This document shows positions 1 through 45,493 of a stretch of DNA of 45,493 bases, piece by piece; position 1 is the first letter of the stretch; each line of letters opens with the position of its first letter. The stretch lies in IMG/VR virus record IMGVR_UViG_3300050821_003887, positions 1-45,493 of that record. One strand, written 5' to 3'. Made by a program: the position numbers and the translations under genes. The notes under the pieces are model-generated. The model was given only the letters and a program-made list of their open reading frames with translations. It was not told where the DNA came from and ran no database searches. The stretch is from a virus.

Positions 1-394
1 ATCGTCGCAGAGTCGCTCACGTAATTGATCGTCGCAGAGTCGCTCACGTAATTGATCGTCGCAGAGCCGCGCACGGAATTGATCGTCGCAGAGCCGCGAA
101 CTTCTTTGATCGTCGCAGAGCCGCGCACGGAATTGATCGTCGCAGAGTCGCTCACGTAATTGATCGTCGCAGAGCCGCGCACGTAATTGATCGTCGCAGA
201 GTCGCTCACGTAATTGATCGTCGCAGAGTCGCTCACGTAATTGATCGTCGCAGAGTCGCGAACTTCTTTGATCGTCGCAGAGTCGCGAACTTCTTTGATC
301 GTCGCAGAGCCGCGCACGGAATTGATCGTCGCAGAGCCGCGCACGGAATTGATCGTCGCAGAGTCGCGAACTTCTTTGATCGTCGCAGAGTCGC
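1..394. repeat. 27-bp tandem repeat array, left part (14 full units plus a partial unit)
   Basis: Units start every 27 bases from base 1 (ATCGTCGCAGAG followed by a variable half) up to 378, with a degenerate unit at 379-394. The constant half encodes SATI on the minus strand with identical codons in every unit. The variable half comes in a few forms encoding NYVS-D, NSVR-G, KEVR-D, KEVR-G and once NYVR-G (163-189). Since 27 is a multiple of three, changes in unit number keep the protein in frame. Confidence 0.95.
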
Positions 395-764
395 CAATCG
401 AGATCACGCGACCGCCTCTCACTGACTCTACGGCCGTTTTTCCGCCAAAGATGTGACAACCATCCACGATCAAGTCAAGAGTCTCATCGACGTGAATGAT
501 ATTCTTGGCGATTGCCCGCAACGTTTTTTCGGCCATTCTCTCTATATCATCTAGCCAAGTTGGTCGTGTTTCTTCGTCAATGTGCCACATCCATTTGTCC
601 ACATCTAAAAGATGATCGCCAGGAAGGAGTTCTACTTTTGCAAATCGCCCCTTTTTGTCGTCATTGAGCTTGAAGATTCGAACTAAGTCACTGTGCGAGT
701 CAACCATCGGATGCCACAAAACATCCCCTGTCGGAGTGATTATAGCGCTCAAAAAATTACACAT
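1..764 (-). CDS. Repeat protein spanning the window ends, 5' part (N-terminal domain plus repeats)
   Basis: The gene starts at ATG 764 (minus) after AAAAGGAGCAAAAGCA, a good Shine-Dalgarno site. A unique N-terminal domain of about 120 residues begins MCNFLSAIITPTGDVLWHPM and is rich in Trp, Asp and His. It is followed by 9-residue repeats of the type SATI-xx-V-x-(D/G). The frame stays open to base 1. After removing the 57-bp terminal overlap it continues in frame at 45436 and stops at 45217, giving about 327 residues. I recall similar proteins (an MCNF-type head followed by short SA(T/Q/R)I repeats) from bacterial and phage genomes, function unknown. A short beta-helix-like stack is a reasonable inference for the repeats. 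It is the only large gene cut by the window ends, which supports a circular molecule. Confidence 0.85.
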   Translation of the reverse strand, partial: MCNFLSAIITPTGDVLWHPMVDSHSDLVRIFKLNDDKKGRFAKVELLPGDHLLDVDKWMWHIDEETRPTWLDDIERMAEKTLRAIAKNIIHVDETLDLIVDGCHIFGGKTAVESVRGGRVISIGDSATIKEVRDSATINSVRGSATINSVRGSATIKEVRDSATIKEVRDSATINYVSDSATINYVSDSATINYVRGSATINYVSDSATINSVRGSATIKEVRGSATINSVRGSATINYVSDSATINYVSDSAT

Positions 765-810
765 TGCTTTTGCTCCTTTTGATAAGGTTCTCCGTTCACT
801 CGCCTTATAT

Positions 811-13438: not shown

Positions 13439-14140
13439 ATGGAAATGGATTACTCGCAAGCTGGCGAAGTGAGTTGGATTCTCAAGAACGTCCGCCTACC
13501 GGAGATGGGATACTTCGTAGACGTAGGCGCTCACGACGGACGCACGGATTCTAATACCTATTGGTTCGAGAAAATGATGGGGTGGAAGGGTCTGTGTATC
13601 GAGCCTCACCCTCAGATGGGCCAGCTTCTCCACGCGCATCGGAAATGTAAGATCGCTCAATGTGCGGTCGGTACACAAGCTTGCGCTCGGTTCTTTATCT
13701 CCGAGATTTCCTCATGGAGCGGGACAACTCCGCCGAAAGGCAACTATCATGAGATGGTCGTACCCATGCTCAGGCTCGATATGGTATTGAGGCAAGCGAG
13801 CCTCCCGCGTGTTGACGTATTGAGCATCGATACGGAAGGGACGGAACTTGATGTACTATCTACGATCGGCCTTGATTCATGGGCCGTGAAGGCTTTGATT
13901 GTGGAATGGGATTCTCAGAGTCGAGAGGATGGGAATCATGAAAATGAAATACGCGAGTACATGGCGGCGTATCATTACTATGATTTTGGGGCGAAGATTG
14001 GCGCGAACTTAATTTATGTGAGAAAAGGATATCAAAATGCCGTTCAAGTCGGAAAGTCAGAGGAAATTTCTGTGGGCGAAACATCCGGCTATTGCGAAGC
14101 GGTGGGCCAAGGAATTTCCGAACCAAAAGAAGTTGCCTAA
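13439..14140 (+). CDS. FkbM-family methyltransferase
   Basis: A SAM-dependent methyltransferase with motif I as FVDVGAHDGRTDSN (26-39), the acidic loop CIEPHPQM (53-60) and the FkbM hallmark SIDTEGTELDVL (129-140), followed by VEWDSQ. FkbM enzymes methylate sugar or small-molecule hydroxyls. Start ATG 13439 has AGAGG; a second ATG (13445) is possible. The last 35 residues (after YVRKG) overlap another real gene out of frame and probably arose by loss of an original stop. It continues the sugar-modification run. Confidence 0.8.
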   Translation: MEMDYSQAGEVSWILKNVRLPEMGYFVDVGAHDGRTDSNTYWFEKMMGWKGLCIEPHPQMGQLLHAHRKCKIAQCAVGTQACARFFISEISSWSGTTPPKGNYHEMVVPMLRLDMVLRQASLPRVDVLSIDTEGTELDVLSTIGLDSWAVKALIVEWDSQSREDGNHENEIREYMAAYHYYDFGAKIGANLIYVRKGYQNAVQVGKSEEISVGETSGYCEAVGQGISEPKEVA

Positions 14141-14180
14141 GCGGGTGAAGAAGAAAAAGAAAGTGCATAGGTTAGCATGA
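14037..14180 (+). CDS. Small basic phage protein of the MPFKSxxQRxF type (47 aa)
   Basis: A 47-residue frame, MPFKSESQRKFLWAKHP followed by IAKRWAKEFPNQKKLP and a Lys-rich tail, matches a family often seen in phage head regions (MPFKS-x-x-QR-x-F-x-x-AKHP-x-IA-x-RWAKE). ATG 14037 follows AAAGGATATCAAA. It lies within the 3' part of the FkbM-type gene in another frame, overlapping by 104 bases, and overlaps the next gene by ATGA. Function unknown; the charge suggests nucleic-acid binding. Confidence 0.75.
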   Translation: MPFKSESQRKFLWAKHPAIAKRWAKEFPNQKKLPKRVKKKKKVHRLA

Positions 14181-14368
14181 TTCCGAATTCTAATAAACTG
14201 TTGTGGTTCTCCTGTCGATGGCTGGATTTAACTCTACATTGGTATCCTGACGCAGATTGTTGCCTGCATTTTGTGCATGACATGAAGTGGTGTACTGCGG
14301 GACTGCGAGTTAAGCCTTTTTGTATTATGCTGTCGTGGAATCCACTACCGATGCGAGTGAGGTTCTAA
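14177..14368 (+). CDS. Small Trp/Cys-rich protein (63 aa)
   Basis: Coupled upstream by ATGA and downstream by TAATG. It starts MIPNSNKLLWFSCRWLDLTL and has five Trp and five Cys, with a HWYPDADCCLHFVHDMKWC stretch. No family is recognised. The tight overlap on both sides is the best evidence that it is expressed. Confidence 0.5.
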   Translation: MIPNSNKLLWFSCRWLDLTLHWYPDADCCLHFVHDMKWCTAGLRVKPFCIMLSWNPLPMRVRF

Positions 14369-14721
14369 TGCCAATCCACGAATATGAGTGCGGTAATTGT
14401 TCGCACCACTGGTGCGAGTATTACAAGATGTCTTCGCTCGTGGCAGAGCGATTGATATGCCCGAAGTGTAATCTTAATTCGGGCGTCAAACAATTCTCTG
14501 CGTCACACACTTATCGCGACTTTGCGAAGCCGATACAGCATTACTCATGCGCGGTTATGACTAGGGCTGAAGCGGAAGCTATCGCCCGTGCTTGCCCCGA
14601 TGTGGAAATCTGCATGGACGAAGCGAGCGAAATGTTTGGTGTGCCTATCAGTCGCAATCAGACAGCGAAAGAGCAGTTGATGAAATTTACTGGCTACATT
14701 GACAAACAGGCCCCAAAGTAG
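14368..14721 (+). CDS. FmdB-like zinc-ribbon protein (117 aa)
   Basis: Start ATG 14368 overlaps the previous stop (TAATG) after GTGAGG; a longer upstream frame is a shadow. MPIHEYECGNCSHHW and LICPKCNLNSG give two C-x2-C pairs (C8, C11 and a second pair about 22 residues later), a single zinc ribbon as in FmdB/putative regulatory proteins. The rest is helical (RAEAEAIARACPDVEICMDE). It may contact DNA, RNA or another head protein. The gene end holds the -35 box of a promoter for the scaffold gene. Confidence 0.75.
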   Translation: MPIHEYECGNCSHHWCEYYKMSSLVAERLICPKCNLNSGVKQFSASHTYRDFAKPIQHYSCAVMTRAEAEAIARACPDVEICMDEASEMFGVPISRNQTAKEQLMKFTGYIDKQAPK

Positions 14722-14728
14722 CTAGTAT
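14699..14728 (+). promoter_or_regulatory. Promoter TTGACA-18-TAGTAT upstream of scaffold
   Basis: A consensus -35 (14699-14704), 18-base spacer and TAGTAT -10 (14723-14728). It is followed by a small hairpin, CCGTCA-TAA-TGACGG (14748-14762), then the Shine-Dalgarno site GAAAGGAT of the scaffold gene at 14779. The hairpin would sit in the 5' leader and may protect or regulate the mRNA. Confidence 0.65.
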
Positions 14729-14778
14729 GTTCCGTCTCACGTTTTTCCCGTCATAATGACGGCTAACGAAAGGATCAC

Positions 14779-15999
14779 ATGCCCGAAGTCGTCCCAGCCC
14801 CAAAAGTTGTCCCTCCTCCCCCGCCCCCGGAAACTACCGCTGCCTCTGCCCTGGCTCAAGAGCGCCCATCTGCCATTCGTCCCAAACATCAGCGGGAGGT
14901 AAAGCACGGCCCGAAACCGGGCACAGATCGGGCGACGAAAGAAGCGATCGGTGCAAAGATCGAAGATCGTCTCAAGCAAGTTGCCGATGAGGGCGTGACA
15001 GACACGCAGAAGAAACGCCTTAGTTCGCATTTCAGTCCCGGCAAGAAGCGCGTTGCGCCTGATCCTGTCGCGGAAGCTGACGATACGGCGGGAGGTACTA
15101 CGACCGAACAGCCCTTGGTTGCTCAGACGGATGCGACTGAAAAAAAGCCGTCTGAGGCTCCCACTTCTGATACCCCGCAAACCGAAGCCGCTCCTGCTGA
15201 ATCAACGCTCGTACTCCCCGATGCCCACCGTCGATCCCTGAAGAATTTTGGGTGGGAAGACGCAGATATCGACGCGAGCATGAAAGGTGCGGGCGCTGCC
15301 GCGTTCTTAACTACGGCCGCGAAAATTCACGCACAGCGATCGAAGGAAATCCAAGCCTACGCAAGAGCGGGACAGGCGTTGCAAGGGACGACACAGCCCG
15401 TTCCGACTCCTGCTCCCGCTCCTACGGCCCCGCCACAGGGGAGTATGGTCGATCGGGTGATGCAGAAGAATGCGGCCCTGAAGAAAGCCTATCCCGGTAA
15501 TGACGCCCTTTTTGATTCGATGATAACGAGCGAATTGGATATGGCGAAGCTGTTGGATTCCCAACGGGAAGCCCAACAGGCCGCACAGCTAGATTTGCAG
15601 ACTAAACAAGTCGATGCGTTCTTTAGTGCGGAACATCTGAAAGTCTATAAGGCGCATTATGGCGAGTCATTCGCAGCCGCCGATGCCGAACAATCCAAGC
15701 GACGAGACCAAGTTATCAACACCGCTGCTTACATTGTCAGGGGCGCACGAGCGCAAGGTGTCGAACTTGATCTCAACACCGCCCTCCAGATGGCCCACGA
15801 CGCTACCGCTGCCCCTATTGCAAAACAAGCCGCGAGGCAGGAAATCATAAATGAAGTCCAAGCCCGTGCGAATGGCTTGACGCAGAAGAATCAAGCGGGG
15901 CCATCGACTAAGCGCGAAGGCGCAGGCAAAGGTCCGCCCTCCCGCTCTGAGTTGCTGAGAAAGACGGGGGATCGGTTGAAGGCGGCAGGATTACGGTAA
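14779..15999 (+). CDS. Capsid scaffolding protein (putative)
   Basis: A 406-residue, highly charged, Ala/Pro/Gln-rich protein lying between portal and capsid genes, the usual place for the scaffold. Pro-rich at the start (MPEVVPAPKVVPPPPPPETT), low complexity to about residue 145, then long helices (AARQ, EIINEVQARANGL). It ends in LLRKTGDRLKAAGLR, echoing the KTGxRLK motif of two upstream head-region proteins; scaffold C-termini typically bind coat protein. A double hairpin terminator follows. Identification is by composition and position. Confidence 0.75.
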   Translation: MPEVVPAPKVVPPPPPPETTAASALAQERPSAIRPKHQREVKHGPKPGTDRATKEAIGAKIEDRLKQVADEGVTDTQKKRLSSHFSPGKKRVAPDPVAEADDTAGGTTTEQPLVAQTDATEKKPSEAPTSDTPQTEAAPAESTLVLPDAHRRSLKNFGWEDADIDASMKGAGAAAFLTTAAKIHAQRSKEIQAYARAGQALQGTTQPVPTPAPAPTAPPQGSMVDRVMQKNAALKKAYPGNDALFDSMITSELDMAKLLDSQREAQQAAQLDLQTKQVDAFFSAEHLKVYKAHYGESFAAADAEQSKRRDQVINTAAYIVRGARAQGVELDLNTALQMAHDATAAPIAKQAARQEIINEVQARANGLTQKNQAGPSTKREGAGKGPPSRSELLRKTGDRLKAAGLR

Positions 16000-16022
16000 A
16001 AGCCCACATCGGCATAGAGTGG

Positions 16023-16051
16023 CGCAGATGGCTCAACATGCCGCATCTGCG
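16023..16051 (+). terminator. First hairpin of a tandem pair after the scaffold gene
   Basis: CGCAGATG (16023-16030) pairs perfectly with CATCTGCG (16044-16051), loop 13 bases. It has no T-run of its own and is followed directly by the terminator hairpin at 16052. It may be an RNA-processing or stabilising element. Confidence 0.5.
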
Positions 16052-16091
16052 AAATGCCCCATGGTTGCGATCATGGGGCATTTGCTTTTTT
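16052..16091 (+). terminator. Rho-independent terminator between scaffold and capsid regions
   Basis: AAATGCCCCATG (16052-16063) and CATGGGGCATTT (16072-16083) form a perfect 12-bp stem with an 8-base loop, followed by GC and six T (16086-16091). Confidence 0.92.
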
Positions 16092-16118
16092 CTCAGGATG
16101 TGATAGGGTGAGGGGAAT

Positions 16119-16553
16119 ATGGCTCAGCGCGGTGACCCAAAACTTGAGTATATCATCGATGCCGTATGCAAGAAGGTCCACGAAACCTTCCCGCGTCATG
16201 GAATACAAAAGCTCTGTCTTCGTCCTGAAATCTGTCCCTCCAATATTATCGACATTGTGATGGACCCTAAGCCGTGGTCTACTTACAAATTAGAAGTGAA
16301 GAAGGGGGATGTGAATCGATGCCATTGGAATTGTGTCGATCTGTTTCAGGAATATCCCCGTGGCGAGGTGCAAATCTGCGTGGGCTTCTACGCCTTTCGT
16401 CCTGAGCTATTAGGTCGTATTCATACGTGGCTCGTCCACAAAGACGGCCATATTATTGAGACTATTCGGCGGGCGGATATTTACGTGGGGAGTTTGCTTT
16501 CTCTCGAACAGTGTGATATGTTCGTCAAGGAAAGCGAAAAGACGCGGCCATGA
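16119..16553 (+). CDS. Hypothetical protein (144 aa)
   Basis: First gene after the terminator; ATG 16119 follows GAGGGG. It is a soluble mixed protein with RHGIQKLCLRPEICPSNIID, CHWNCVDLFQEYPRGEVQIC and a C-terminal half containing WLVHKDGHIIETIRRADIYV. Seven Cys are present but no clear zinc pattern. I do not recognise a family. Its stop overlaps the start of the endonuclease gene (ATGA). Position next to the capsid gene might suggest a head role. Confidence 0.65.
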   Translation: MAQRGDPKLEYIIDAVCKKVHETFPRHGIQKLCLRPEICPSNIIDIVMDPKPWSTYKLEVKKGDVNRCHWNCVDLFQEYPRGEVQICVGFYAFRPELLGRIHTWLVHKDGHIIETIRRADIYVGSLLSLEQCDMFVKESEKTRP

Positions 16554-17065
16554 AGCGATGTACGAAATGTAATCTTGAAAAGCCAGAGACGGAATTTCAT
16601 CGTCGTGGTAAGAGCGGCCTACATGCCGAATGCAAGACGTGCCGATGTGCAAGGGAACGAGAGGGAGGTAAACGGCGGTACTATGCGGACCTCGATCGTT
16701 CGCGAGAAACGAATCGCGAGAAGCGGCGTAAAGAACGGCAGACGATGGAGACGTGGTGTGCGCAGATTATTTCCCCTATTCGTCGTCGTGCGGCGGAACA
16801 AAATCTTCCCTTCGATTTGGATGCCGGTTACTTACGGTCAATTTGGCCCGCTAACAATCTCTGTCCTGTGTTGTATACGGAATTTCTTTTTGGCCGCGAG
16901 AAAGGAAATAATGCGGGACCGTCTGTTGATCGACGTGTGCCAGAAAAAGGATATGTGCGTGGGAATGTGACGATACTTTCGTATCGTGCGAACCGTTTGA
17001 AGTGTGATGCAACTCCTTCCGAACTACTCGCGGTGATTGACTATGTAAAACAATGCGGCCTATGA
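16550..17065 (+). CDS. HNH-type phage endonuclease with zinc finger
   Basis: The 171-residue protein starts with a zinc finger, C4-x2-C7 and C28-x2-C31 (MKRCTKCNLEKPETEF; AECKTCRC), followed by a basic helix. The C-terminal third has GPSVDRRVPEKGYVRGNV (123-140) and SYRANRLKCDATPSELL, a signature seen in many free-standing phage endonucleases. A remnant of a relative is at 4139-4339. The gene lies between ATGA and the capsid gene. It is flanked by GCGGCCATGA (16545-16554 region) and GCGGCCTATGA (17056-17065 region), which hints at insertion. Confidence 0.75.
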   Translation: MKRCTKCNLEKPETEFHRRGKSGLHAECKTCRCAREREGGKRRYYADLDRSRETNREKRRKERQTMETWCAQIISPIRRRAAEQNLPFDLDAGYLRSIWPANNLCPVLYTEFLFGREKGNNAGPSVDRRVPEKGYVRGNVTILSYRANRLKCDATPSELLAVIDYVKQCGL

Positions 17066-17084
17066 TATCCCGACGCCCCGAAGT

Positions 17085-18227
17085 TTGGGCGGTTTCAAAG
17101 AGGTAACTACGGCTGACATCAGTGTGCTCACCGATCTCGTGCAAAATACCCTGAACAACCTACCGTGGGACGGTTCCTGGGAACTCTGTCTTAACCAGCC
17201 CGACTATCCCGTCGCGGCTATCCTCAATGACGACCATATCAAGTCTGAGGGCGGAAAGTCGATTCAGAAGCAAATCGTTCTGAATTACAACTTTAACCAA
17301 GCCGCGAACCGTACCCTCTATCAGACCGACGTGCCTGCCGCCCCGCAGATGATGAACACGATCATCGTGCCGTGGTGCTTCACGGGCGTCAACTGGTCCT
17401 ACGACAAAAACGAACTTGCGATGAACAGCGGGAGCAAGGCGGGCTTCATCGATCTCATCGAACAGAAGCGCGTCGATGCCATGATCCAACTTGCGGAGCT
17501 TTACGAAACTAACGGATGGGTTGCACCAATTTCAGCGGCCGATACCACGACCCCGTACGGTATCCCCTACTACCTCCCATTTGCGGCCAATGGATTTGTT
17601 GGTAACGGTTTCTCCGGTCAGACAGTACGATACCAGAACGGAACTATCGGCACTCTTGTGGCAGGTATCGATGCCTCAGTCCAGACCAAATGGAATAGTT
17701 TCGTCGGAACTTATGCCAAGGTCGATAATGCTCTCATTCGTTTGATTCGCTCTGCGACTCGTAAGACAAACTTCAAATTCCCGAAGATGGTGAAGAATCC
17801 CGGTGAGGATTATTCGCGCGTCGATAGTGATGAAGGGTTGTATGCCTCTGAAGCAATCGTGACGGAATTGGAAGACTACGCCTACAAGAATGGGGACAAT
17901 ATGGCCCCGGCGCGGGAGTTGACTGGCCGTATCGGCTTCACTGAAGATGGTGTGACGTTCTCTGGCGTCCCGCTCCGTTACGCTCCTACGCTGGATACCG
18001 AAACGGTTGTCAACACGGCGGGAACGACTGTCAATCCCGCCTCAATTTACATGGTTCGGTGGGGCGCGATTCAGCCCACGGTTTTGACTGACATGTGGAA
18101 TGTGGAATCGGTATCTGCGATTACGCCGTTCCAGCACACGGTTATCTCGTGCTTCTTGGACTCGACTTACAATCTGGTCATTCGTAACCGGCGTAGTGCA
18201 GGCTTCCATCTTCACTTGGCACTTTAA
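17085..18227 (+). CDS. Major capsid protein
   Basis: A 380-residue protein in the position and size range of the coat protein, with an early helix (ISVLTDLVQNTLNNLPWDG), an extended beta region, and a long central domain (RLIRSATRKTNFKFPKMVKN). It has high Asn/Thr/Gly content and a balanced charge as in HK97-fold coats. The first usable start is TTG 17085 without a clear Shine-Dalgarno. The 12 codons before it read in frame as AYDIPTPRS plus flanks and look coding, so the real N-terminus is probably longer and the ATG was disturbed by the endonuclease gene just upstream. Confidence 0.85.
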   Translation: MGGFKEVTTADISVLTDLVQNTLNNLPWDGSWELCLNQPDYPVAAILNDDHIKSEGGKSIQKQIVLNYNFNQAANRTLYQTDVPAAPQMMNTIIVPWCFTGVNWSYDKNELAMNSGSKAGFIDLIEQKRVDAMIQLAELYETNGWVAPISAADTTTPYGIPYYLPFAANGFVGNGFSGQTVRYQNGTIGTLVAGIDASVQTKWNSFVGTYAKVDNALIRLIRSATRKTNFKFPKMVKNPGEDYSRVDSDEGLYASEAIVTELEDYAYKNGDNMAPARELTGRIGFTEDGVTFSGVPLRYAPTLDTETVVNTAGTTVNPASIYMVRWGAIQPTVLTDMWNVESVSAITPFQHTVISCFLDSTYNLVIRNRRSAGFHLHLAL

Positions 18228-18274
18228 GGTGGAATCCACGGATCGGGTTTGACAAACACGCAAAATGGCGTGGT

Positions 18275-18586
18275 ATGCGGCCCGGAGCGAAAATTGAAGC
18301 TCAGCGGCGAGCCGGACGAAAGTATATAGCTCTCCGCGAGTACGGATTGAGTGAGGCGGAATTTGAAGCTGTTGAAGCTCGACGCCACACAGGTAACTGT
18401 GAAATATGCGGTATTCATGCCAGTGAGGCATTACGCGGCATATTATTCATAGACCACGATCACGATAATAAACAATATCGTGGTCTGTTGTGCGACGATT
18501 GTAATCAAGCAATCTCGCGATTGAAGAACAGTGTTCCTATCGTGCTAAATGCCGCGCGATACTTAGAAAGAACAGGTGTCTCTTGA
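18275..18586 (+). CDS. Endonuclease VII-type homing endonuclease (103 aa)
   Basis: Short form with C42-x2-C45 (NCEICGIH), the catalytic IDHDHDNKQYRG (59-70) and CDDCN (73-77), plus a final helix. It has no long N-terminal extension. It lies between the capsid gene and its downstream partner, whose TTG start overlaps its stop (TTGA). The start ATG 18275 lacks a good ribosome site; a TTGACA is present at 18249-18254. Confidence 0.8.
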   Translation: MRPGAKIEAQRRAGRKYIALREYGLSEAEFEAVEARRHTGNCEICGIHASEALRGILFIDHDHDNKQYRGLLCDDCNQAISRLKNSVPIVLNAARYLERTGVS

Positions 18587-19557
18587 GGACAGGGCTTGTA
18601 AAACCGAACGGCTACTCTGCGACGTATCTCACGAATCAGCTTTCTCCCGGCGTGTGGGATACCTGCCCCGGCTCTGACCTTAACCAGTTGGCGACCGGCT
18701 ACTTCGCCTATTTCCACTATGAGAATGGTTTCCATCCCGCCTCTTTGCTGTTCACGGATGCGGGCAGCACGACCACGAGCGGACAGGCATGGGACAATTC
18801 CAGCACTCTCACTACGAACGTCGGCACGACTGCCGTTAGCTCAACGGCAGGTATCGGCCACGTCATTACCCTGACGGGCGGTTCGACTTCGACTTCGGCT
18901 CTCGCGGGCCGCGTTGGTATCGTCACTCGCCCGATTGGATCGATTACTCCGGGTGGCCTCGGCTATTGGTTCGAGGCGTGTGTGACTGTCACCAACTCCA
19001 CGACTCAGGGTGCATTCGTCGGTATCGCGACCCTTCCCGCGCTCTCCACAGGCGGGAGTACGGGTGGCGGGATCATCAGCACTGTCACGGCGACTCGCTC
19101 CACGAATACCCTCATTGGCTCGACTGGCGCGATCGGCTTCTGGATGCATGGTGCTTCGACCCTTAACTTCGATGCCATCTATCAGAATCAGACTAGTGGT
19201 GGCAGCACTAACTCCGGTATCTCCACGGTGCTTCAGGGTGTATTGACTTCTTCGACTGGTGCGATTGTGCCTGTCTCGATCTATACGGGCGCTATTGGGC
19301 CTGTCACCCCGCCCGGCCTGTTGACCAGCACGCAATGCGTGAAGCTCGGCCTCAAGTATCTGCCGCAAGGGCCGGGTGGCCCGCAGATGCAGTGGTATGT
19401 GAACGGCGCGCAGGTTGCGGCTGTTCAGGTCACGACTGCCGGATTTGATGTGGCGAATCAATATGGTGCGATTGTCGAGTTTGCTGGTCCGTCCACAGGT
19501 ACTGCGAGTCAGATGAAAGTTGATTTCTTGGCCGTGGCCGCGCAGCAGACGTATTGA
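18583..19557 (+). CDS. Putative head decoration or other abundant virion protein (324 aa)
   Basis: All-beta, rich in Thr, Ser and Gly (SAGIGHVITLTGGST-like stretches) and almost without Lys, typical of virion surface proteins. The second half includes VKLGLKYLPQGPGGPQMQWY and VNGAQVAAVQVTTAGFD, reminiscent of concanavalin/LamG-like jelly rolls. It comes right after the capsid gene and an inserted endonuclease, and before a terminator, so it probably belongs to the same transcript as the capsid. It starts with TTG overlapping the endonuclease stop; no ATG is in frame near by. Confidence 0.65.
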   Translation: MRTGLVKPNGYSATYLTNQLSPGVWDTCPGSDLNQLATGYFAYFHYENGFHPASLLFTDAGSTTTSGQAWDNSSTLTTNVGTTAVSSTAGIGHVITLTGGSTSTSALAGRVGIVTRPIGSITPGGLGYWFEACVTVTNSTTQGAFVGIATLPALSTGGSTGGGIISTVTATRSTNTLIGSTGAIGFWMHGASTLNFDAIYQNQTSGGSTNSGISTVLQGVLTSSTGAIVPVSIYTGAIGPVTPPGLLTSTQCVKLGLKYLPQGPGGPQMQWYVNGAQVAAVQVTTAGFDVANQYGAIVEFAGPSTGTASQMKVDFLAVAAQQTY

Positions 19558-19571
19558 TCTTGCGTTGGGTA

Positions 19572-19593
19572 GGGCCATCACTTTTTCTGGCCC
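19572..19593 (+). terminator. Hairpin after the decoration-protein gene
   Basis: GGGCCA (19572-19577) pairs with TGGCCC (19588-19593), loop TCACTTTTTC. No T-run follows, so this is probably a helper hairpin to the terminator just downstream. Confidence 0.45.
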
Positions 19594-19604
19594 ATTTGCT
19601 CCTG

Positions 19605-19641
19605 AGCCGGTGAAGGTTGCGGACCCTTCCCGGCTTCTTTT
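19605..19641 (+). terminator. Rho-independent terminator before the adaptor gene
   Basis: AGCCGG (19605-19610) pairs with CCGGCT (19630-19635); inside it GAAGG pairs with CCTTC. A T-rich stretch (TCTTTTGT) follows. It ends the capsid/decoration transcript 20 bases before the next gene. Confidence 0.75.
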
Positions 19642-19657
19642 GTAGGTGGAATGAGCT

Positions 19658-20872
19658 ATGGCGCAAATTTTTCCCACGGGAGAAAATACTTCCGCTCTTA
19701 ACTTCGGCCAACTCGTAACCAACGTGGCTTATAAATTGGGGGTAGCGTCTTACGGCTCGACAGGAACAGGCGCACCTGCCCTTCCTACTGACCCCTTCAA
19801 TCTCTCTATTTGTCAAACCATCGTCAACGATTCGATCCGTATGCTTATCGCAGATGGTGCGGGAAAGTGGTATTGGCAGGATCAAACAATTCAGCTTGAT
19901 ACATTCCCGAATATTGGGCCAGATTCAACGGGCAGCACGTATGTGAAATCCACGGCGTATGACGCAGTCAACAATCTCACTACGCTTACCCTCACATCGC
20001 CCGCGACTCCCCCGGCTAACTCTACAGCGTTTCCTACGACGTTCGTTCCCTCTTTCTTGCAGTCGATGGAACTTCGGATTATCTGGCTCAATGGCGTGCC
20101 GTCCACAGGATTTCCCGGCAGTCTGTCTTTCCAAGGCACGGTCTTCGGCTCGACGGTGGGCGTGCCGTTCACGATCGTCAATTACCTTAGCCCCACAACT
20201 GTCCAAATAAGCGGGACACTCTCGACCGGCTCAGTCTCTACCTTCGTGGGATCGACTCACATTCCCTTCTCGATCGCGACGTTGGGTGACTTCACTCTAC
20301 CCGCCGATTTCGGTGGAGCATACACGTCAGAGATTACGTGGATAGCGGGAACGAATCGTGCGGTCTACATCGATTGGGTCGATGAGGCTACAATTCGTGC
20401 GCAACGTCAGCTTTACGCCTTCCAATTCGGTATTCCCTCTGTGGCGTCCGTGCGGCCTATCCCGCTCCCTACAGTTGCACAGATGGCGATCACTCCTACG
20501 CGGCCCCGGTGGGAGTTGAATATGTGGGTTTCGCCGTCCGAGTATTTGTCGGTGAACTTTAGCCACATGTTATCGTTCAATAACCTTGTCAATAGTACCG
20601 ATCTTCCCCCGACTCCCCTTTCGTTCGATGAGGTACTTCTTGCGGCTGTTCGCGCTCAGACTGAGCGTTATCAGATGGATTCGATCGGGGGACATGATTG
20701 GGAGTATTACCGCACGATTGCCCTCCCGAACGCTCAGAAGCTCAATACGATGGCCGCACCGAAGAAGCTCGGTGTAATGAGCAACGGCGGGATGAAGGCA
20801 GGCCCACGGGGGCTTACAGACTGGCGAAGACGGTGGTATCTCAGAAGTAACATAACTCAATTTCCCCGTTGA
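19658..20872 (+). CDS. Head-tail adaptor / tail protein (putative)
   Basis: A 404-residue protein after the capsid group. The N-terminal part, FGQLVTNVAYKLGVASYG (about 16-33) followed by ICQTIVNDSIRMLIADGAGK, looks like the helical core of podovirus head-tail connectors; a beta-rich insertion follows, then a C-terminal region with PPTPLSFDEVLLAAVRAQTE. GGTGGA precedes the ATG. It would bind beneath the portal ring. The exact type (gp4- or gp11-like) cannot be set from sequence alone. Confidence 0.65.
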   Translation: MAQIFPTGENTSALNFGQLVTNVAYKLGVASYGSTGTGAPALPTDPFNLSICQTIVNDSIRMLIADGAGKWYWQDQTIQLDTFPNIGPDSTGSTYVKSTAYDAVNNLTTLTLTSPATPPANSTAFPTTFVPSFLQSMELRIIWLNGVPSTGFPGSLSFQGTVFGSTVGVPFTIVNYLSPTTVQISGTLSTGSVSTFVGSTHIPFSIATLGDFTLPADFGGAYTSEITWIAGTNRAVYIDWVDEATIRAQRQLYAFQFGIPSVASVRPIPLPTVAQMAITPTRPRWELNMWVSPSEYLSVNFSHMLSFNNLVNSTDLPPTPLSFDEVLLAAVRAQTERYQMDSIGGHDWEYYRTIALPNAQKLNTMAAPKKLGVMSNGGMKAGPRGLTDWRRRWYLRSNITQFPR

Positions 20873-34692: not shown

Positions 34693-35529
34693 TCATTCTG
34701 CCTCTACACTGAGAACATCCCGAACAAAGTGCCGAGTGTGAAGTTCCTCATCCCCTAATCGAATCAAACTCCCGCCTATTTGGGTAGAGCCAGTACGACC
34801 GCCCGGCAAGCGATATACATAGGGAGTCTTACCTTGCCAAGCAGCGGTAACAAATGCAACTTTATATCCGCCCTCACTTGGAAGGCGAATTTCCGAACAA
34901 CGATGGCGATGGCTACGCACGATAATATCGGGCGGCTTTCGGCCTGATCGTCCCGCATTTGTAAAGAACGCGGAAAGTTCTGCGTTGACCGCGCTCGTCT
35001 CATGCGCGGAACTTGAGGTTGTCCCTATGTGATGGCTCGCATGGATCAAATACGGGCCTAGTTTCTTCATCAACTCCCATCGGGCGTGGCGACCTTGACG
35101 ATCAGGAATTGCCCCTAAGCTCTTAGCAAGTGTTTCTTCGTATTCGCCGCTCTGACCTACGTGGGCCTCTGTGCCCCTCACATGGTAATATCGCCCCTCG
35201 CACATATCAACAACCGGCTTTAGGATAACTTCGGTATGCCGTCGCTGATCGTGTATGTTGTGACTCCATTGCGTCGTAGCGTGATGGTGTGATCCATCCA
35301 CAGAATCTCCATTGTGAATTACAATGAATGGCTCGCCATGAGTCGCACGGGGAATCCAATCACCCCAAAATTCCTCCCACACTTTCCAAATTTGTTTCTG
35401 GATTGGGGAAGGTTTCGCGATCCCCCCGCCATCTAACTCCGCACCATCGGGCGACATAAGAGCAAGTTGGCATCCAACATGTGTATCCGAAATCACAACG
35501 ATATTGCGAATCTCTTTCGGCTTCTTCAT
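34693..35529 (-). CDS. Calcineurin-like metallophosphoesterase (278 aa)
   Basis: The metal-binding motifs are in order: ISDTHVG (13-19), HNGDSVDGS (72-80), RGTEAHVG (118-125, variant of GNHD/E), ASHHIG (about 164-169) and a final RSHRHR (about 206-211). This is a binuclear metallophosphoesterase that might hydrolyse nucleic acid or nucleotide phosphates; phage relatives act with recombination proteins. Its stop is followed at once by a second copy of its own tail. ATG 35529 overlaps the previous stop. Confidence 0.8.
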   Translation of the reverse strand: MKKPKEIRNIVVISDTHVGCQLALMSPDGAELDGGGIAKPSPIQKQIWKVWEEFWGDWIPRATHGEPFIVIHNGDSVDGSHHHATTQWSHNIHDQRRHTEVILKPVVDMCEGRYYHVRGTEAHVGQSGEYEETLAKSLGAIPDRQGRHARWELMKKLGPYLIHASHHIGTTSSSAHETSAVNAELSAFFTNAGRSGRKPPDIIVRSHRHRCSEIRLPSEGGYKVAFVTAAWQGKTPYVYRLPGGRTGSTQIGGSLIRLGDEELHTRHFVRDVLSVEAE

Positions 35530-36341
35530 TCAGCCTCCCGCTTCGGTACGAACGTCCGTGAGATTATATTATCCGAACAGTAATCCCACAAGGGGTCGGC
35601 CGAATTATTCTCGCACTCAATTTCCAAGCCGATCCATCGGGCAAGGAAAAACTCCGCAGCGGCCCCCACGCTTTTTGTCCAGCCACGCAAGAGATAGAGC
35701 TTGTTGCAGGTCAGGATCGCGGCCACATCCCGCTGTGCATAGCCTTTGTCGTCTGTGAAACCCTTCTCTCGATCGATATCAGCTGGGGAGATTACTTCAT
35801 AGTCCCTTGCCTTGAGCCTGTCACGAGCGGCATCGAAGGCGGGAAAGTTGAAGTCTTTGATCCCGCGCATGGGACCGGCACAATACACCCGCACTTTCTT
35901 TTTGTGGACATGAGGACACGATGCTCTTACTCTTAGAAATGCGTTATAATTTGGATCATCGCGTCGATCGAGGGTTTCGTTTGTCAAAGGATCGGTATCA
36001 GGAACCGGGTGAAAATTGGTTTGTAGTAATCCAGAACGTACGCAATCTGCCGATCTCTTTTCTTCTGCTAGCTGAAGATATGCAAGAGCGCGCCAAGCGA
36101 TATGGGCCGCATGAAGCTCCCCACTATCCGGGGCGATTTGATCCCGCTCTGCTAAGTGACGCCCGATGCAGTCTGCATGATCGGTACTTTTATCGCGGGA
36201 CCAGTGTAGTGGCTCGCCGGGATTATGTTTAGCGTTTCCCTTGTGGCTGACTCTTGCCACAGCAGCAATTGCCAGTGGGAAATAATCGAGTACTCCCGTC
36301 ACTACCGGCGTTTCCTTCCGTTCCTTGCTGTTGCTTGTCAT
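35526..36341 (-). CDS. dATP/dGTP diphosphohydrolase-like (DUF5664) fused to DUF4406
   Basis: I use ATG 36341 (AGGAG, 8-base spacing); a longer frame starts inside the preceding small gene. Residues 15-90 match the DUF5664 pattern of phage dATP/dGTP diphosphohydrolases: GVLDYFPLAIAAVARVSHKG, HNPGEPLHWSRDKSTDHADC and AHIAWRALAYLQLAEE. Residues about 148-250 match DUF4406 (2-deoxyribosyltransferase-like): RVYCAGPMRGIKDFNFPAFD and TKSVGAAAEFFLA. Both activities concern purine deoxynucleotides, so the fusion may alter dATP/dGTP pools. The PurZ/HD-type partners of 2-aminoadenine phages were not seen. Confidence 0.75.
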   Translation of the reverse strand: MTSNSKERKETPVVTGVLDYFPLAIAAVARVSHKGNAKHNPGEPLHWSRDKSTDHADCIGRHLAERDQIAPDSGELHAAHIAWRALAYLQLAEEKRSADCVRSGLLQTNFHPVPDTDPLTNETLDRRDDPNYNAFLRVRASCPHVHKKKVRVYCAGPMRGIKDFNFPAFDAARDRLKARDYEVISPADIDREKGFTDDKGYAQRDVAAILTCNKLYLLRGWTKSVGAAAEFFLARWIGLEIECENNSADPLWDYCSDNIISRTFVPKREAE

Positions 36342-36423
36342 TGTCTTTTCTCCTGAAAATACGCTCCCATCCTTCATCCCATTTCTTTTGATCGAAGGGG
36401 CGTGTTTTACTGCCTTTACCCAT
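36229..36423 (-). CDS. Small basic phage protein of the MGKGSxxRPF type (64 aa)
   Basis: MGKGSKTRPFDQKKWDEGW followed by ERIFRRKDND matches a family of small phage proteins (MGKGS-x-x-RPF ... W-x-x-IF-x-KK) of unknown function. ATG 36423 has no good Shine-Dalgarno; a GTG at 36465 adds 14 residues. The C-terminal half overlaps the DUF5664-DUF4406 gene for 113 bases out of frame, so the native stop may have been lost. Confidence 0.55.
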   Translation of the reverse strand: MGKGSKTRPFDQKKWDEGWERIFRRKDNDKQQQGTEGNAGSDGSTRLFPTGNCCCGKSQPQGKR

Positions 36424-36486
36424 AAGAGGCCCGGCACGAATCGATCGTGGACTTATTGTCGCCACGATCGTTCCCGATCTTAATCA

Positions 36487-39599: not shown

Positions 39600-40166
39600 T
39601 TACTCCGAGGGAAGAAGACCTTTGAATTTGGGCGAGTGGGGTCCACCCTTATGCCCGACAGGTAATATATACTCCTGAATTAAGAAAGAGCAAATTAAAA
39701 ACGCATCTAACACGCCATCTTGTATCCCGCCTCTTGACCCACGAATTAAGCGGGAGTGCTGTGGGAAATGCCCATCGAAATATCGTGTGGCTTCATGACT
39801 CAAAGGATCATCAATTTTGCCGGGTATTCCAAGCCGCCCTTTCCAAAGATTCGGCGCAATCAATACATACGGAATAGATGCCATTTCAAAAGCCATCTCA
39901 ATATTGCCGATGCCCCGGCCAAATCGAAAGCATCGCTCTGCACCCTCTCCCGGTCGTGTGGTGGGATTTTCTAGTCCCACTTTCACGACGGGAAGGGCGG
40001 CGATCTCAGAGACGATTTCTGTCAGGCCAACCAGATCGAGTGATCGGAAATTTTGATGCTTCACAGGCATGTGCCATACACGCGCAAATCTCCCATCTAC
40101 CGAAAGAGCGCAGAGCGCCCCGCTAAATCCGGGGTCCACACCACAAAATAAGCTACTCTGCTGCAT
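39600..40166 (-). CDS. RuvC-like Holliday junction resolvase
   Basis: Start ATG 40166, after AAGGATACTT, is preferred over an upstream ATG that runs inside the polymerase gene. Residues show the RNase H-fold acidic motifs: CGVDPGFSGAL (8-18, Asp11), VGLENPTT (63-70, Glu66) and DGVLDAFLI (150-158, Asp150 and Asp154). This pattern is of RuvC-type resolvases, here 188 residues. It resolves recombination or replication branches before packaging. It overlaps the polymerase stop by 14 bases. Confidence 0.8.
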   Translation of the reverse strand: MQQSSLFCGVDPGFSGALCALSVDGRFARVWHMPVKHQNFRSLDLVGLTEIVSEIAALPVVKVGLENPTTRPGEGAERCFRFGRGIGNIEMAFEMASIPYVLIAPNLWKGRLGIPGKIDDPLSHEATRYFDGHFPQHSRLIRGSRGGIQDGVLDAFLICSFLIQEYILPVGHKGGPHSPKFKGLLPSE

Positions 40167-42051
40167 AAGTATCCTTAATCGTTGCTTCTGCCCCCAATGG
40201 CAAGTCGCTTGCCCATGTAGGGCACCTACAAAGTTCTTCAATAGCGACATTCACGGCTTCTTGCGCCCGATCTTCCCGCGTGTGTATTAAAACTTCGTCG
40301 TGAATCCAGTGGCATGTTGGAAATCCTCGCGATTCAATGCGCAAGATAGCTTCTCCAAGAATGTCCCGCGCTGTGGCTTGGACTACATTTTCGACAAGTG
40401 TTCCACCCCACACATCCTCATGATTTCTCCCATTCTGCCAGTCTATTGACATGCAATCCCGATCTCCACAGAGTTTCGGATATCGCAGACAGCGGCCAGA
40501 AGGCAATCGGATAAGGCGGGAGTCAGGGCCATTCCACCCCGATTCGACAGTAAAGTGCTTGCCCTTCACATCGCCCGCCCAAAAGGCATCCTGCAAATCA
40601 TACCAGAATTGCGGGATGGCCGGATACTTATGTCGGTAGAAATGGACAGCTTTCTCGGCTGTTTGATAGTCACATTCTGCAAAGTCAGAGAAGTGAGTAG
40701 CGCCCATCCCATATCCCATACCAAGTATACAGACCTTACCAAAACCGCGTAGCTTCTTGAGCTTCTTCACAAGCGGGAGAGGGTCGTCATTAGTTGGATT
40801 CCACACTTTTATATGGTAGAAGTCACTTGCGAAGTCAGAATAGATATCGACTTTGTTAGCAAAAGCTGCCGTTAGATCGTCCTGTCCCGCTAGCCAACTT
40901 AACACCCTTGCTTCAATTGCGTTTAAGTCCGCAGAAATTAGTTTATATCCTGCTTGAGCTGCCAACATCTCCCTCATTTGTAGCAAAAGATCGTGCCCAC
41001 GCTTCGGGAGATTTTGTAGGTTAATGCGATAGCTGCCGGACCATCGCCCGGTTGTAGCTCCCGCATAATTTAGAGGGACAGGCAATAAGCCGTCCGCACA
41101 TTTGGCGAGTGATGTGATACGCTCTATCCGTTTCAGGTGTAGCGGCCATGACTTCTTCGCTACGCGAGCTTCCATCAACAATTGCACCCGCTCATTCTTG
41201 TGTTTCAATAACTGATACCGTTCTGCGTCGTCTTTCGCAAGGGCAAGAGCTTCGCCCGTCTTTACTGGCTTAAAGTATTGCTTCGGATCATCTCCCGCCT
41301 CTGTTAGCGCCTCAACCATCAACTTCTCAAACAAGATATTCCCGCTGATTTGCCTCTCTGTACATCCCGTCTTCTCGACCGCATGGGCTGTATCCGCTAG
41401 CATTCCTGCCGTGATTGCCTTAGCCTTCTCAAAATCGAATCGAATGCAAGGCTTGGTCATTAGTTCAACAGTCCGTTGCATGAGCGGAAGCTCGATTGCA
41501 GGATTATCGATAAGCGGGAGTAGCTTCATCCCGATCTTGTACTGCAATCTCACATCGTTTGCCGTGTAGTTGATGTATGCGTTTTGCTCTTGTTCGATCA
41601 TTGTCTCATATCGCTTGCCCATGAAATTCATCGGATCGCCCTTAGTGGGCAAACCCAATTGTTTCGCCACATCCTTCAAGGAATGCGAAGCGGCAGGCCA
41701 GAGATGCGCGGCCAAGAGTTTCGTGTCGATGAAGTATTTCGGATAGATGCTGTGGATAATCGCGAGGATTGAAGCATCGAATGCGGCGTTTTGGAAACTC
41801 CACGTAACGTCTTCGGCGTTCAATCGCTTTAGCTCGACATAATTCCATCCCGGTACAACGCGCTCATCGCCCGGCATGTCGCAATAGCCCACGCATTGCG
41901 TCTCAAATCGCGGATCGCAGATGTATTCCCACGTTCCCGTGTGGGAGAGGGAATAAGAACGGTCAAAGAAAGTTTCGTAGTCAACTACGCATATCCGGCG
42001 AGGAAAGCCAGCTTCATCTAATGCGTCCATCCAAGTTCGTTTAGCGACCAT
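40153..42051 (-). CDS. polA: DNA polymerase, family A (with 3'-5' exonuclease)
   Basis: 632 residues. The exonuclease domain has VVDYETF (22-28, DxE), FQNAAFD (86-92) and YTANDVRLQY (162-171). The polymerase domain has motif A DLNAIEARVLSWLAGQ, motif B as KVCILGMGYGMG (in place of the usual RxxxKxxNFGxxYG) and motif C WIHDEVLIHT. This is the replicative phage polymerase. ATG 42051 follows GGTGAAAC and overlaps the endonuclease gene before it by 11 bases. Confidence 0.9.
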   Translation of the reverse strand: MVAKRTWMDALDEAGFPRRICVVDYETFFDRSYSLSHTGTWEYICDPRFETQCVGYCDMPGDERVVPGWNYVELKRLNAEDVTWSFQNAAFDASILAIIHSIYPKYFIDTKLLAAHLWPAASHSLKDVAKQLGLPTKGDPMNFMGKRYETMIEQEQNAYINYTANDVRLQYKIGMKLLPLIDNPAIELPLMQRTVELMTKPCIRFDFEKAKAITAGMLADTAHAVEKTGCTERQISGNILFEKLMVEALTEAGDDPKQYFKPVKTGEALALAKDDAERYQLLKHKNERVQLLMEARVAKKSWPLHLKRIERITSLAKCADGLLPVPLNYAGATTGRWSGSYRINLQNLPKRGHDLLLQMREMLAAQAGYKLISADLNAIEARVLSWLAGQDDLTAAFANKVDIYSDFASDFYHIKVWNPTNDDPLPLVKKLKKLRGFGKVCILGMGYGMGATHFSDFAECDYQTAEKAVHFYRHKYPAIPQFWYDLQDAFWAGDVKGKHFTVESGWNGPDSRLIRLPSGRCLRYPKLCGDRDCMSIDWQNGRNHEDVWGGTLVENVVQATARDILGEAILRIESRGFPTCHWIHDEVLIHTREDRAQEAVNVAIEELCRCPTWASDLPLGAEATIKDTYAAE

Positions 42052-42523
42052 GTTTCACCAAGTAATCCGCAAGACGATGAAGCAAATCCACGCTGTCTTC
42101 TACTTTTCCTAGCGTGAGATTACATCGACTGCACAAAAGCCCCCGAATAAACCCCGATTCACCTTTCTGTTTATTGTGGTTATGGTCAACATGCAAGCGC
42201 ACATCTGTCGGCGGTTCACCGCAGATCGCACAAACGCCCCTCTGAGCCGCTAAAAGCTGTGAATATTCTACCAACGTAATCCCATACGCACATTTTAACT
42301 TTTGCGAGCGAACCGTGGTTGAATCTTCTTGATATCTGCGTCGTTTTTCCGTATTGATATGGTCACGATTCTTTTGCGTCCATGCTTTATGCTTAGCAGC
42401 ATGGGCGGCTCTCTCATCGGGCGTCATATTAGCATATCGTTGACGCGCAATTGCTCGGACATGTTCGCGATTGCGAACGACCCATCGCCGGGTAGCGGCG
42501 CGCTGTTCGGGGGTTTTCTTCAT
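42041..42523 (-). CDS. Endonuclease VII-type homing endonuclease (160 aa)
   Basis: ATG 42523 follows GGAGGGAGAATA and overlaps the primase-helicase stop (TAATG); an upstream Met would run inside that gene. A basic N-terminal region (residues 1-75) is followed by C98-x2-C101 (VCAICGEPP), the catalytic HVDHNHNKQKGESG (111-124), RGLLCSRCN (127-135) and a C-terminal helix (EDSVDLLHRLADYLV). It lies between primase and polymerase genes, a common place for homing endonucleases. Confidence 0.87.
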   Translation of the reverse strand: MKKTPEQRAATRRWVVRNREHVRAIARQRYANMTPDERAAHAAKHKAWTQKNRDHINTEKRRRYQEDSTTVRSQKLKCAYGITLVEYSQLLAAQRGVCAICGEPPTDVRLHVDHNHNKQKGESGFIRGLLCSRCNLTLGKVEDSVDLLHRLADYLVKHGR

Positions 42524-44706
42524 TATTCTCCCTCCAAAGCTACTCCGACGATCTTGAGCCACGCGGCCCTAATCTCATCGACAGGGGGCATTGTCACTGT
42601 ACCCGCCCCTAACCTAATCTGCAAATCCCGGCATAGGCTGTCGATCTCATGCGCGTCTGCTTTGTATCGCTCGGTCATTTTCATAAAGCTGACGGGGGAT
42701 GGGTCGGCACTTTCTAGCCACATCTTGAGTGCGAGCTTCCCGCGCGACAGCGTATCGAGCTTATGCCGCGCCATCGATACCGTTTCCGGCTTGGCTTCAG
42801 GATTCCAGCTTGTCACATCCCGCTCTAACAAGTCGTGCAGCATCGCTTCATCGCCCCCGTGAGTCATCTCATCAACTAATTCCCGCCAAAATCGAGAGTG
42901 ATCGCAATGCGGTGTGGTCTGATAAGTCGTCAAAGGCTTAAAGATCACAAAGCGCCGATTGCTTGGATCGACCGGCACAACTTTATCCTCATTCGACGTG
43001 ATAATGAAATGACAATAATTCGGTGCTTCGACAATTTGGCTCCCCTTCCGCTCAACCGGCATGATAGGATCGGTGACAAGGCTTTTGAGCTTGCCGATAT
43101 TCGTGTCGTTGAATTTGCACTCATCAGCTTGTATGAAAATCTTGCCCCATAGATGCCCACTGAACCGCCCCGTCAATTGCTCCGGTAAGGTGATCTTCAT
43201 TGCGTGCGTGCCAAGAATGCGAGTGAGGGCATCCGCAAATAGAGATTTGCCCGTGCCTTGCCCGCCGTGGAAGACGATCGCAGTACGCGGGAGGATAGTG
43301 GGGTGTTGGATCATCGACGCAATCCAATTCATCACATAATCTACGTACGCTTGCTTGCCCTCACACAGACAGCGCAAATTCTCCTGCATCTTCGCCCACG
43401 ATCCCTTTTGCGATGAGACTGCATAACCTTTCCACAAGTTGTAGTAACCGTCTGCGTGGGAGCGGGTAGGGTCTATGACATAGCCTTTAGGGTAAAATCG
43501 ACGGCGCTTTTCGTCTTCGATCCACTTGCGGAATACATCCACTTTTATTTCTTTGCCGTCCGCGCCCGTGTACGTTTCCTTGATATACGCCGTCTCGAAT
43601 TTGAAGTCTTGCACCGACATAATCTCACGGGGCATTTCCGCCTTTTGGTTCACATTATCGTCATGACCATAGACGATCTTCCCGCCAAGACAGACCATGA
43701 AGTAATTGGCATTCAGGCGAGCGGTCGAGTCATTTGCATCCACTTCGGATTGTGCCGCGTCCAGCGCCCAATTCAATGTCCGTCGAGCTTCCCGCAATGG
43801 CTCGCGCACATCCCATACATGACCCGCGTGATGAAAACGGGGGTCCATGAGGATCGACAGCGTTTCTTCTTGCTTGACTCCCGCCTTGATTAGCTCGACC
43901 GCGATATGATTCATTAGCTGCGAGCGGTCTGACCATTTCAGTCCGGTTTTCGTGTCTATGCCTGTTTCGATTTTGTTTCGCAAGTCAGGGGAAATGTGCA
44001 AGCTGCCCAAATCGACCGCAGGCGCGGGATTAATTTCCGCCACCGCCGTCGGCGTGCGGGAGATAAAGGAATTGTCTTTAGGGAAGTCAGAGATTTGGTA
44101 TTTGTTTTCATTATGTTGCTCTACAGTATGACACAAAAGTGGGAGTGCGGGCAGCTTGCAATTCCACGTCCCCGGCAGTCTTAACAAGCGAGAGGGATTG
44201 CGGCACTTCCCATCGCCCCCCATCCACTTAGCGATGCCATTCAGGACAATCGATAAGTCTAGCCGCGTGAAGTCTTGCCCGATCTTCACGGGCGCTTGCA
44301 AGAACCAATATAAATGATACCCATTGCCGGAATCATTGATGATCGTAGGCAAGAGCTTGCCCGCTACCTTGTGAATGCGCGCTAGCTCTCCCGCCTTTAT
44401 TCGAGACCGCTCTTGCATGTCCGTGATGCCCTTGAGCGCGGGGATGTCCACATCGCACCAAAGACAAGTGACGGCGGTCACATCCTCGTCTTGCATGGCC
44501 CCATCTGCGCCCGTGCATTTACGCGCAAGGCCGCATCGGAAATACACGTCAGCATTAGTGTGGGATCTGAGAAAGGTGGACAGGTCGTCTATCTCAGGCG
44601 GGAGAAAACGGGTATGGACAGCGGGGAGTACCGCCAATGACCAAGTGCCGCAAGGCTGGATCGCCCGCAGGAACTTGATCGCTTGTTCGGGGTAGGGTGC
44701 GGACAT
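42523..44706 (-). CDS. PrimPol-type primase fused to SF3 helicase
   Basis: 727 residues. The N-terminal primase/polymerase has TCLWCDVDIPA (80-90, metal-binding DxD), NDSGNGYHLYWFL (124-136) and RLLRLPGTWN (173-182), as in archaeo-eukaryotic PrimPols. The C-terminal half is an SF3 helicase: Walker A FHGGQGTGKS (479-488), Walker B IFIQADE (523-529), motif C FIITSNED (567-574), then SNRRFVIFK. The layout resembles the NrS-1-type phage PrimPol-helicase. It primes and unwinds for the family A polymerase. A promoter ends about 10 bases before its ATG and no Shine-Dalgarno is seen. Confidence 0.88.
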   Translation of the reverse strand: MSAPYPEQAIKFLRAIQPCGTWSLAVLPAVHTRFLPPEIDDLSTFLRSHTNADVYFRCGLARKCTGADGAMQDEDVTAVTCLWCDVDIPALKGITDMQERSRIKAGELARIHKVAGKLLPTIINDSGNGYHLYWFLQAPVKIGQDFTRLDLSIVLNGIAKWMGGDGKCRNPSRLLRLPGTWNCKLPALPLLCHTVEQHNENKYQISDFPKDNSFISRTPTAVAEINPAPAVDLGSLHISPDLRNKIETGIDTKTGLKWSDRSQLMNHIAVELIKAGVKQEETLSILMDPRFHHAGHVWDVREPLREARRTLNWALDAAQSEVDANDSTARLNANYFMVCLGGKIVYGHDDNVNQKAEMPREIMSVQDFKFETAYIKETYTGADGKEIKVDVFRKWIEDEKRRRFYPKGYVIDPTRSHADGYYNLWKGYAVSSQKGSWAKMQENLRCLCEGKQAYVDYVMNWIASMIQHPTILPRTAIVFHGGQGTGKSLFADALTRILGTHAMKITLPEQLTGRFSGHLWGKIFIQADECKFNDTNIGKLKSLVTDPIMPVERKGSQIVEAPNYCHFIITSNEDKVVPVDPSNRRFVIFKPLTTYQTTPHCDHSRFWRELVDEMTHGGDEAMLHDLLERDVTSWNPEAKPETVSMARHKLDTLSRGKLALKMWLESADPSPVSFMKMTERYKADAHEIDSLCRDLQIRLGAGTVTMPPVDEIRAAWLKIVGVALEGE

Positions 44707-45141: not shown

Positions 45142-45216
45142 CGGATTAACACCATTCTGTCCGTAAAAGGAATCGTCTTAACTTTGAATGACACGAAACA
45201 TCCTTTCGAGTGGGGG

Positions 45217-45493
45217 TTATTTCTTTGGGGTGCGGTAGTCCGCACGGATCGTCGCAGAGTCGCTCACGTAATTGATCGTCGCAGAGTCGCGAACTTCTTT
45301 GATCGTCGCAGAGCCGCGCACGGAATTGATCGTCGCAGAGTCGCGAACTTCTTTGATCGTCGCAGAGTCGCGAACTTCTTTGATCGTCGCAGAGCCGCGA
45401 ACTTCTTTGATCGTCGCAGAGCCGCGCACGGAATTGATCGTCGCAGAGTCGCTCACGTAATTGATCGTCGCAGAGTCGCTCACGTAATTGATC
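45217..45493 (-). CDS. Repeat protein spanning the window ends, 3' part (repeats and C-terminus)
   Basis: This is the continuation of the gene that starts at 764. From the right edge the minus-strand frame is a series of 9-residue repeats (SDSATINYV, RGSATINSV, RDSATIKEV) ending in SDSATIRADYRTPKK and a TAA at 45217-45219. The last 57 bases repeat bases 1-57, so the true unit joins base 1 to 45436. Removing the overlap leaves seven units here that are not also counted at the left edge. Confidence 0.85.
   Translation of the reverse strand, partial: INYVSDSATINYVSDSATINSVRGSATIKEVRGSATIKEVRDSATIKEVRDSATINSVRGSATIKEVRDSATINYVSDSATIRADYRTPKK
45248..45493. repeat. 27-bp tandem repeat array, right part (9 full units plus 3 bases)
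   Basis: Units start at 45248, 45275, 45302, 45329, 45356, 45383, 45410, 45437 and 45464. The last two units and ATC are identical to bases 1-57. Joined with the left array the circle would hold 21 full units. Confidence 0.95.

Follow-up and report, generated by a model that had tools for sequence, protein, structure and literature searches.

A phage gene that spans both ends of its contig joins a conserved head to a tandem-repeat arm, and relatives carry the same head on a retroelement-mutated C-terminus

What kind of gene begins at one end of a phage contig and finishes at the other, and what would a protein built largely from nine-residue repeats do for the virus? We addressed this question in the window, an IMG/VR virus record analysed over its whole length of 45,493 bases, the first and last 57 of which are exactly identical. 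With the overlap trimmed and the genes re-called, head and array joined in frame as one minus-strand ORF that runs from an ATG at 764 through base 1 to a stop at 45217 and holds 327 amino acids plus the stop (984 bases), as the sequence-only reading had proposed from the two ends; the good ribosome-binding site that it saw (AAAAGGAG) and the head start that it gave (MCNFLSAIITPTG) were confirmed as well (Table 1). The joined protein comprises a 123-residue head, 22 nine-residue SATI units of which the first is degenerate, and the tail RADYRTPKK, so that the earlier estimate of about 21 repeats agrees with the joined ORF, but 22 is only one solution for the window array and the true number is uncertain. 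The plus strand is also open across the array, as had been noticed (ORFs 3-425 and 45184-45492). The minus frame is nevertheless the coding one, because homologues retain it, because an intact homologue (L009) exists, and because the head is under purifying selection, with dN 0.27 and dS 1.9 between the heads of the window and L009. The L009 gene, which encodes 211 aa with a 70% identical head and nine units, lies uninterrupted within one 31.8-kb contig (L003) and has the same architecture, so head and array form one gene.

Table 1. Coordinates of the joined gene, the contig ends and the downstream replication genes in the window.
Feature	Position	Strand	Remarks
Ribosome-binding site AAAAGGAG	773..780	-	8 nt upstream of ATG 764
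Head domain, residues 1-123, MCNFLSAIITPTG...RVISI	396..764	-	conserved residues; head modelled alone by AlphaFold2, pLDDT 90
Array, first part, up to the join at base 1	1..395	-	27-bp/9-residue units; AlphaFold2 beta-solenoid
Array, remainder, at the opposite contig end	45247..45493	-	
C-terminal tail RADYRTPKK + stop	45217..45246	-	comparable short tails end L009 and L059
Terminal direct repeat, copy 1	1..57		two NYVSD units + 3 nt; array repeat at the assembly break
Terminal direct repeat, copy 2	45437..45493		
DNA primase, next large downstream gene, same direction	42523..44706	-	511 bp past the stop
Recombination endonuclease VII + DNA polymerase genes, same direction	40153..42562	-	

Exact repeats of up to 96 nt in the joined window array exceed the 57-nt overlap, and 14 of 36 distinct related repeat-type contigs have an end within their array versus 0.8 expected; both window ends are therefore an assembly break in the array, and the 57-bp terminal repeat is the residue of an assembler stopping there. 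Since the head and tail of a single gene lie at opposite ends, the contig is most sensibly read as circular or permuted, and there is good support for the window gene being a single unit in an assembly of that kind (circular or circularly permuted). The frame is kept whatever whole number of 27-bp units is present. The case also carries a practical warning: in many phage contigs such arrays are where the sequence has been cut or closed wrongly.

Structurally, the array is made of three main unit types (KEVRDSATI, NSVRGSATI and NYVSDSATI) plus hybrids, in which S, A, T, I and V do not vary, the variable positions being those that follow the conserved Ile (N/K, S/E/Y) and the Val (R/S, G/D). AlphaFold2, run with 23 sequences on a 254-residue part of the window protein, predicted a beta-solenoid with one five-residue strand per unit and several degenerate strands bridging head to array (pLDDT 95, pTM 0.88), which supplies the structure prediction that the sequence-only reading had proposed; the variable residues would face outward. 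Fold searches with the models of the 254-residue part and of the head gave no match in the PDB at E <= 0.001, and the best match among viral models was a phage protein fragment from Siphoviridae sp. ctPsO101 (E 2.6e-8). Like pentapeptide and YdcK repeat proteins, the window protein is thus predicted to be a beta-solenoid of short tandem units, but its nine-residue unit matches neither Pfam model; for PF00805 in particular the window units gave no match, being nine residues long rather than A(D/N)LXX five-residue units. DNA mimicry by the arrays was considered and set aside, since the net charge is near zero in most of them (range -9 to +2, with +2 in the window).

The head, which we describe as a small alpha/beta domain, carries a conserved motif (C2, S6, S23-H24, E45, P48, W58, D63, P68, W70). 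A database search, among the checks proposed beforehand, was run for the head and array and returned no match in Pfam, PHROGs or NCBIfam, to which the head family is new, and searches of solved structures by sequence and by fold found no relative of the head. Cys-2 is present in 22 of 25 members, His-24 in 25 of 26 and Glu-45 in 25 of 26, counts that come almost wholly from members fetched without selection on the N-terminus. These members weaken a strict catalytic invariance of Cys-2, an earlier appearance of which had been partly imposed by the search pattern: Cys-2 is replaced in a few, by Ser in L106 and by Gly in L104, a retroelement-bearing locus whose gene starts 16 codons before locus base 3001 and where His-24 has also become Tyr. 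The joint loss in L104 suggests that Cys-2 and His-24 act together, and by their conservation Cys-2, His-24, Glu-45 and Asp-63 could plausibly form a catalytic or ligand-binding site. The head did not qualify as an N-terminal-nucleophile amidotransferase, given the lack of a Pfam or PDB fold match and the members with Cys-2 replaced.

To place the protein among its relatives, we gathered a family by searching phage records, viral contigs and genomes with alignments that were enlarged step by step, membership of this MCxF-head family being defined by the head motif followed by a solenoid or C-lectin C-terminus, both of which (head motif and solenoid) the window protein has. Among the 63 heads placed in a tree after removal of most near-duplicates, 26 carry 9-mer arrays, 11 carry 8-mer arrays, 20 end in C-lectin-like domains, one in a pentapeptide solenoid and five in degenerate or very short solenoids. 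Pfam recognised DUF6273 in L010 and L070, and L063 and L072 match PF00805 (pentapeptide) and PF18836 (YdcK beta-solenoid), PF00805 being the match of L063. Evolutionarily, all 20 C-lectin forms fall together, inside a larger branch that also contains Clostridia repeat forms, a grouping that is not among the nodes with support >= 80; the pentapeptide form clusters with the window's own clade (support 100), and 8- and 9-residue arrays are intermingled. The solenoids of L095 and L116 are strongly diverged and non-homogenised, so some arrays have not expanded recently. Few bacterial genomes carry the family: it is present in one of 398 in the phylum, and in two of 200 in the family, to which a known carrier belongs (carrier counted), and plasmids gave no match to it.

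The C-lectin members show what else this head can bear. In 16 C-lectin records a reverse transcriptase lies close downstream of a target gene with the same head as the window, and in the template/variable pairs of L011, L014, L015, L016 and L020, 70 of 75 mismatches fall at template adenines. L100-L103 are nearly identical genes whose differences are almost confined to the last 110 nt, a stretch that holds all 15 sites differing between L100 and L101. An active diversity-generating retroelement thus acts on the same head in relatives. The window protein is not itself such a target, as its C-terminus is a tandem array rather than a C-lectin with adenine-directed template/variable mismatches, and the window record gave no match to PF00078 (reverse transcriptase); adenine-directed mutagenesis of the array was likewise discarded, the variable unit columns sharing no adenine rule and the record having no reverse transcriptase. 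Three C-lectin members (L010, L105 and L106) also have no detectable reverse transcriptase in their records; in L106 conserved residues are changed too, and this copy may be decaying or served in trans.

The arrays change by other means. Between the near-identical phages L110 and L113 (99.2-99.96% over two aligned pieces) the arrays differ by 162 nt, which is exactly six units, and L053 and L055 have identical heads and different ends; short-read mis-assembly could be partly responsible for array differences between contigs. The window gene shares with early repeat proteins of the bbp36/VR2 type (below) a tandem array of 8-9-residue units of varying copy number in the replication region, with the copy change itself seen in L110/L113 and not in the window. 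Across 21 low-divergence arrays from separate lineages, only 13 of 128 substitution types between units were synonymous, against 27.5 +/- 4.0 expected when the same base changes were placed at random (0 of 5000 permutations as low). Part of this excess of amino-acid changes stems from codon swaps at several bases, each base of which was counted, and the arrays of L107 and L108 do not show it. Between phages the heads vary in the reverse way, with pN far below pS. The suggestion that this is a repeat-built, tunable structure is accordingly supported by the solenoid model, the gain or loss of whole units and the amino-acid bias of unit variation.

By its neighbours, the gene would belong to the early region and not to the tail. 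In the window it precedes primase, endonuclease VII, DNA polymerase and exonuclease genes, all in the same direction, with one weak terminator-like stem, at chance level, before the primase. Exonuclease (recombination nuclease) or RecT genes follow the family gene in L052, L059, L060 and L061, and in Dulem virus 35 it has the repressor region on one side and an AAA/SMC-like ATPase on the other. No conserved gene partner was found common to the window and its relatives. GHKL-type ATPase genes adjoin the family gene in otherwise different contigs (L003 4984-6381, recognised by eye; L012 2030-3532, by Pfam), and the gene that directly precedes the L009 homologue (L003 3168-3944) has no Pfam match and starts MCLAVFQPKGD, a product that we take to resemble a class II glutamine amidotransferase. 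Elsewhere in the window, 35526-36437 encodes a phrog_27780 domain fused to a nucleoside 2-deoxyribosyltransferase-like domain, and for 14000-20000 a comparison with 50,697 phage records gave no relative at the DNA level; the phage appears to come from an unsampled group.

Several known systems resemble parts of this arrangement. Bordetella phage BPP-1, the archetype of retroelement variation, carries bbp36 (L119 32776-33705), which in translation has a DUF7666 head followed by 8-residue GTATAGYR units and sits two genes before a DUF2800/PD-(D/E)XK nuclease gene. Like the window gene, bbp36/VR2 is an early-region phage gene with a non-repetitive head and then tandem units (24-bp in bbp36), but its DUF7666 head is unrelated to the window head, which has no Pfam match, and homology was rejected at an hhalign probability of 0.1; we know of no retroelement version of the DUF7666 head. 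The bbp36 array varies from 9 to 20 copies by isolate and is not essential (PMC2884959). Array copy number also varies between phages in Tweety gp54, Che8 gp57 and PMC gp51, and in Tweety-type arrays third codon positions are invariant while first and second positions vary, from which the authors infer selection for variation (PMC2884959). The window family shares with these a variable-copy tandem array whose variation favours amino-acid change, but theirs are tetrapeptide Ala-rich units with different ends and no Pfam match. DUF6273, for its part, is a known retroelement target (PMC11792537). The Faecalibacterium prophage targets have a C-terminal DUF6273, as do L010 and L070, and an adenine-directed variable region, as do our relatives; unlike them, the window protein lacks DUF6273 and the window record lacks a reverse transcriptase, and the reported targets are not described, in the portion of that article available, as bearing the window-type head (PMC11792537). 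In the literature on phage nonapeptide solenoids only the Tweety/BMP-1 precedent was found, and we found no report, within an incomplete coverage of the literature, of a single head family that is diversified in some members by tandem repeats and in others by a retroelement.

We posit, at even chances, that the gene encodes a non-structural early cytosolic protein in which a conserved head carries a recognition surface that can be exchanged and that varies rapidly. Unequal recombination or slippage between 27-bp units would shuffle a small palette of outward residues and alter the length of the arm, and selection would retain array variants. The arm could in this way offer a diversity-generating recognition surface for a fast-changing intracellular partner, for example a host defence or rival-phage protein, and the head would act on that partner or be delivered to it. 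The same variation might instead alter host or mucus binding if the arm were an adhesin, secreted or exposed on the virion, comparable to tail-fibre C-lectin proteins or tentaclins. Many phage retroelement targets are indeed classed as tail proteins in published surveys (PMC8144416), and the retroelement targets of gut phages include proteins with DUF6273 variable regions, one of which has a tail-fibre-like N-terminal domain (PMC11792537). We consider an adhesin unlikely, however, since the gene lies in the replication/recombination region and away from tail genes in the window, L052, L059, L060, L061 and Dulem virus 35, the sequence shows no signal peptide, and no tail-protein profile matches the window protein.

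Alternatively, the array could serve passively as a scaffold or spacer, or could mimic DNA in the manner of MfpA/Qnr, with a length that drifts by slippage and unit differences that are unselected. Tandem 24/27-bp arrays are prone to slippage, pentapeptide solenoids such as MfpA mimic DNA (PMC10886550), and a pentapeptide member, L063, does exist; the near-neutral charge of most arrays is unlike a DNA mimic, though, and both the skew of unit differences towards amino-acid changes and the dedicated mutagenesis target borne by the same head in relatives make a passive array improbable to us. Because one head bears either an array or a retroelement-mutated domain, we argue that the arrays are diversity devices and not slippage noise. 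That pairing would also go unexplained if the head were simply an enzyme and the arm only a polymerising or localising tail, a view that its N-terminal Cys, His and acidic residues, superficially N-terminal-nucleophile-like, invite through their near-constancy and the joint loss in L104; with no sequence or fold relative of the head among solved structures, we hold this to be very unlikely.

The family thus has a conserved head, exchangeable C-termini and two independent means of rapid variation. Extending the recognition-surface reading more tentatively, to a point that we would place somewhat short of an even chance, these proteins could be a cytosolic effector family whose single conserved head accepts interchangeable devices for hypervariation: in Clostridia phages a C-lectin mutated by a retroelement, and elsewhere a beta-solenoid shuffled by recombination. 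Phages would in this way re-target an intracellular protein as tail fibres re-target receptors. Variable arrays have been on record for years in early genes of phages (bbp36/VR2, Tweety gp54) and were given no role, and the repeat arm has the look of a second and simpler means by which a protein's contacts can go on changing.
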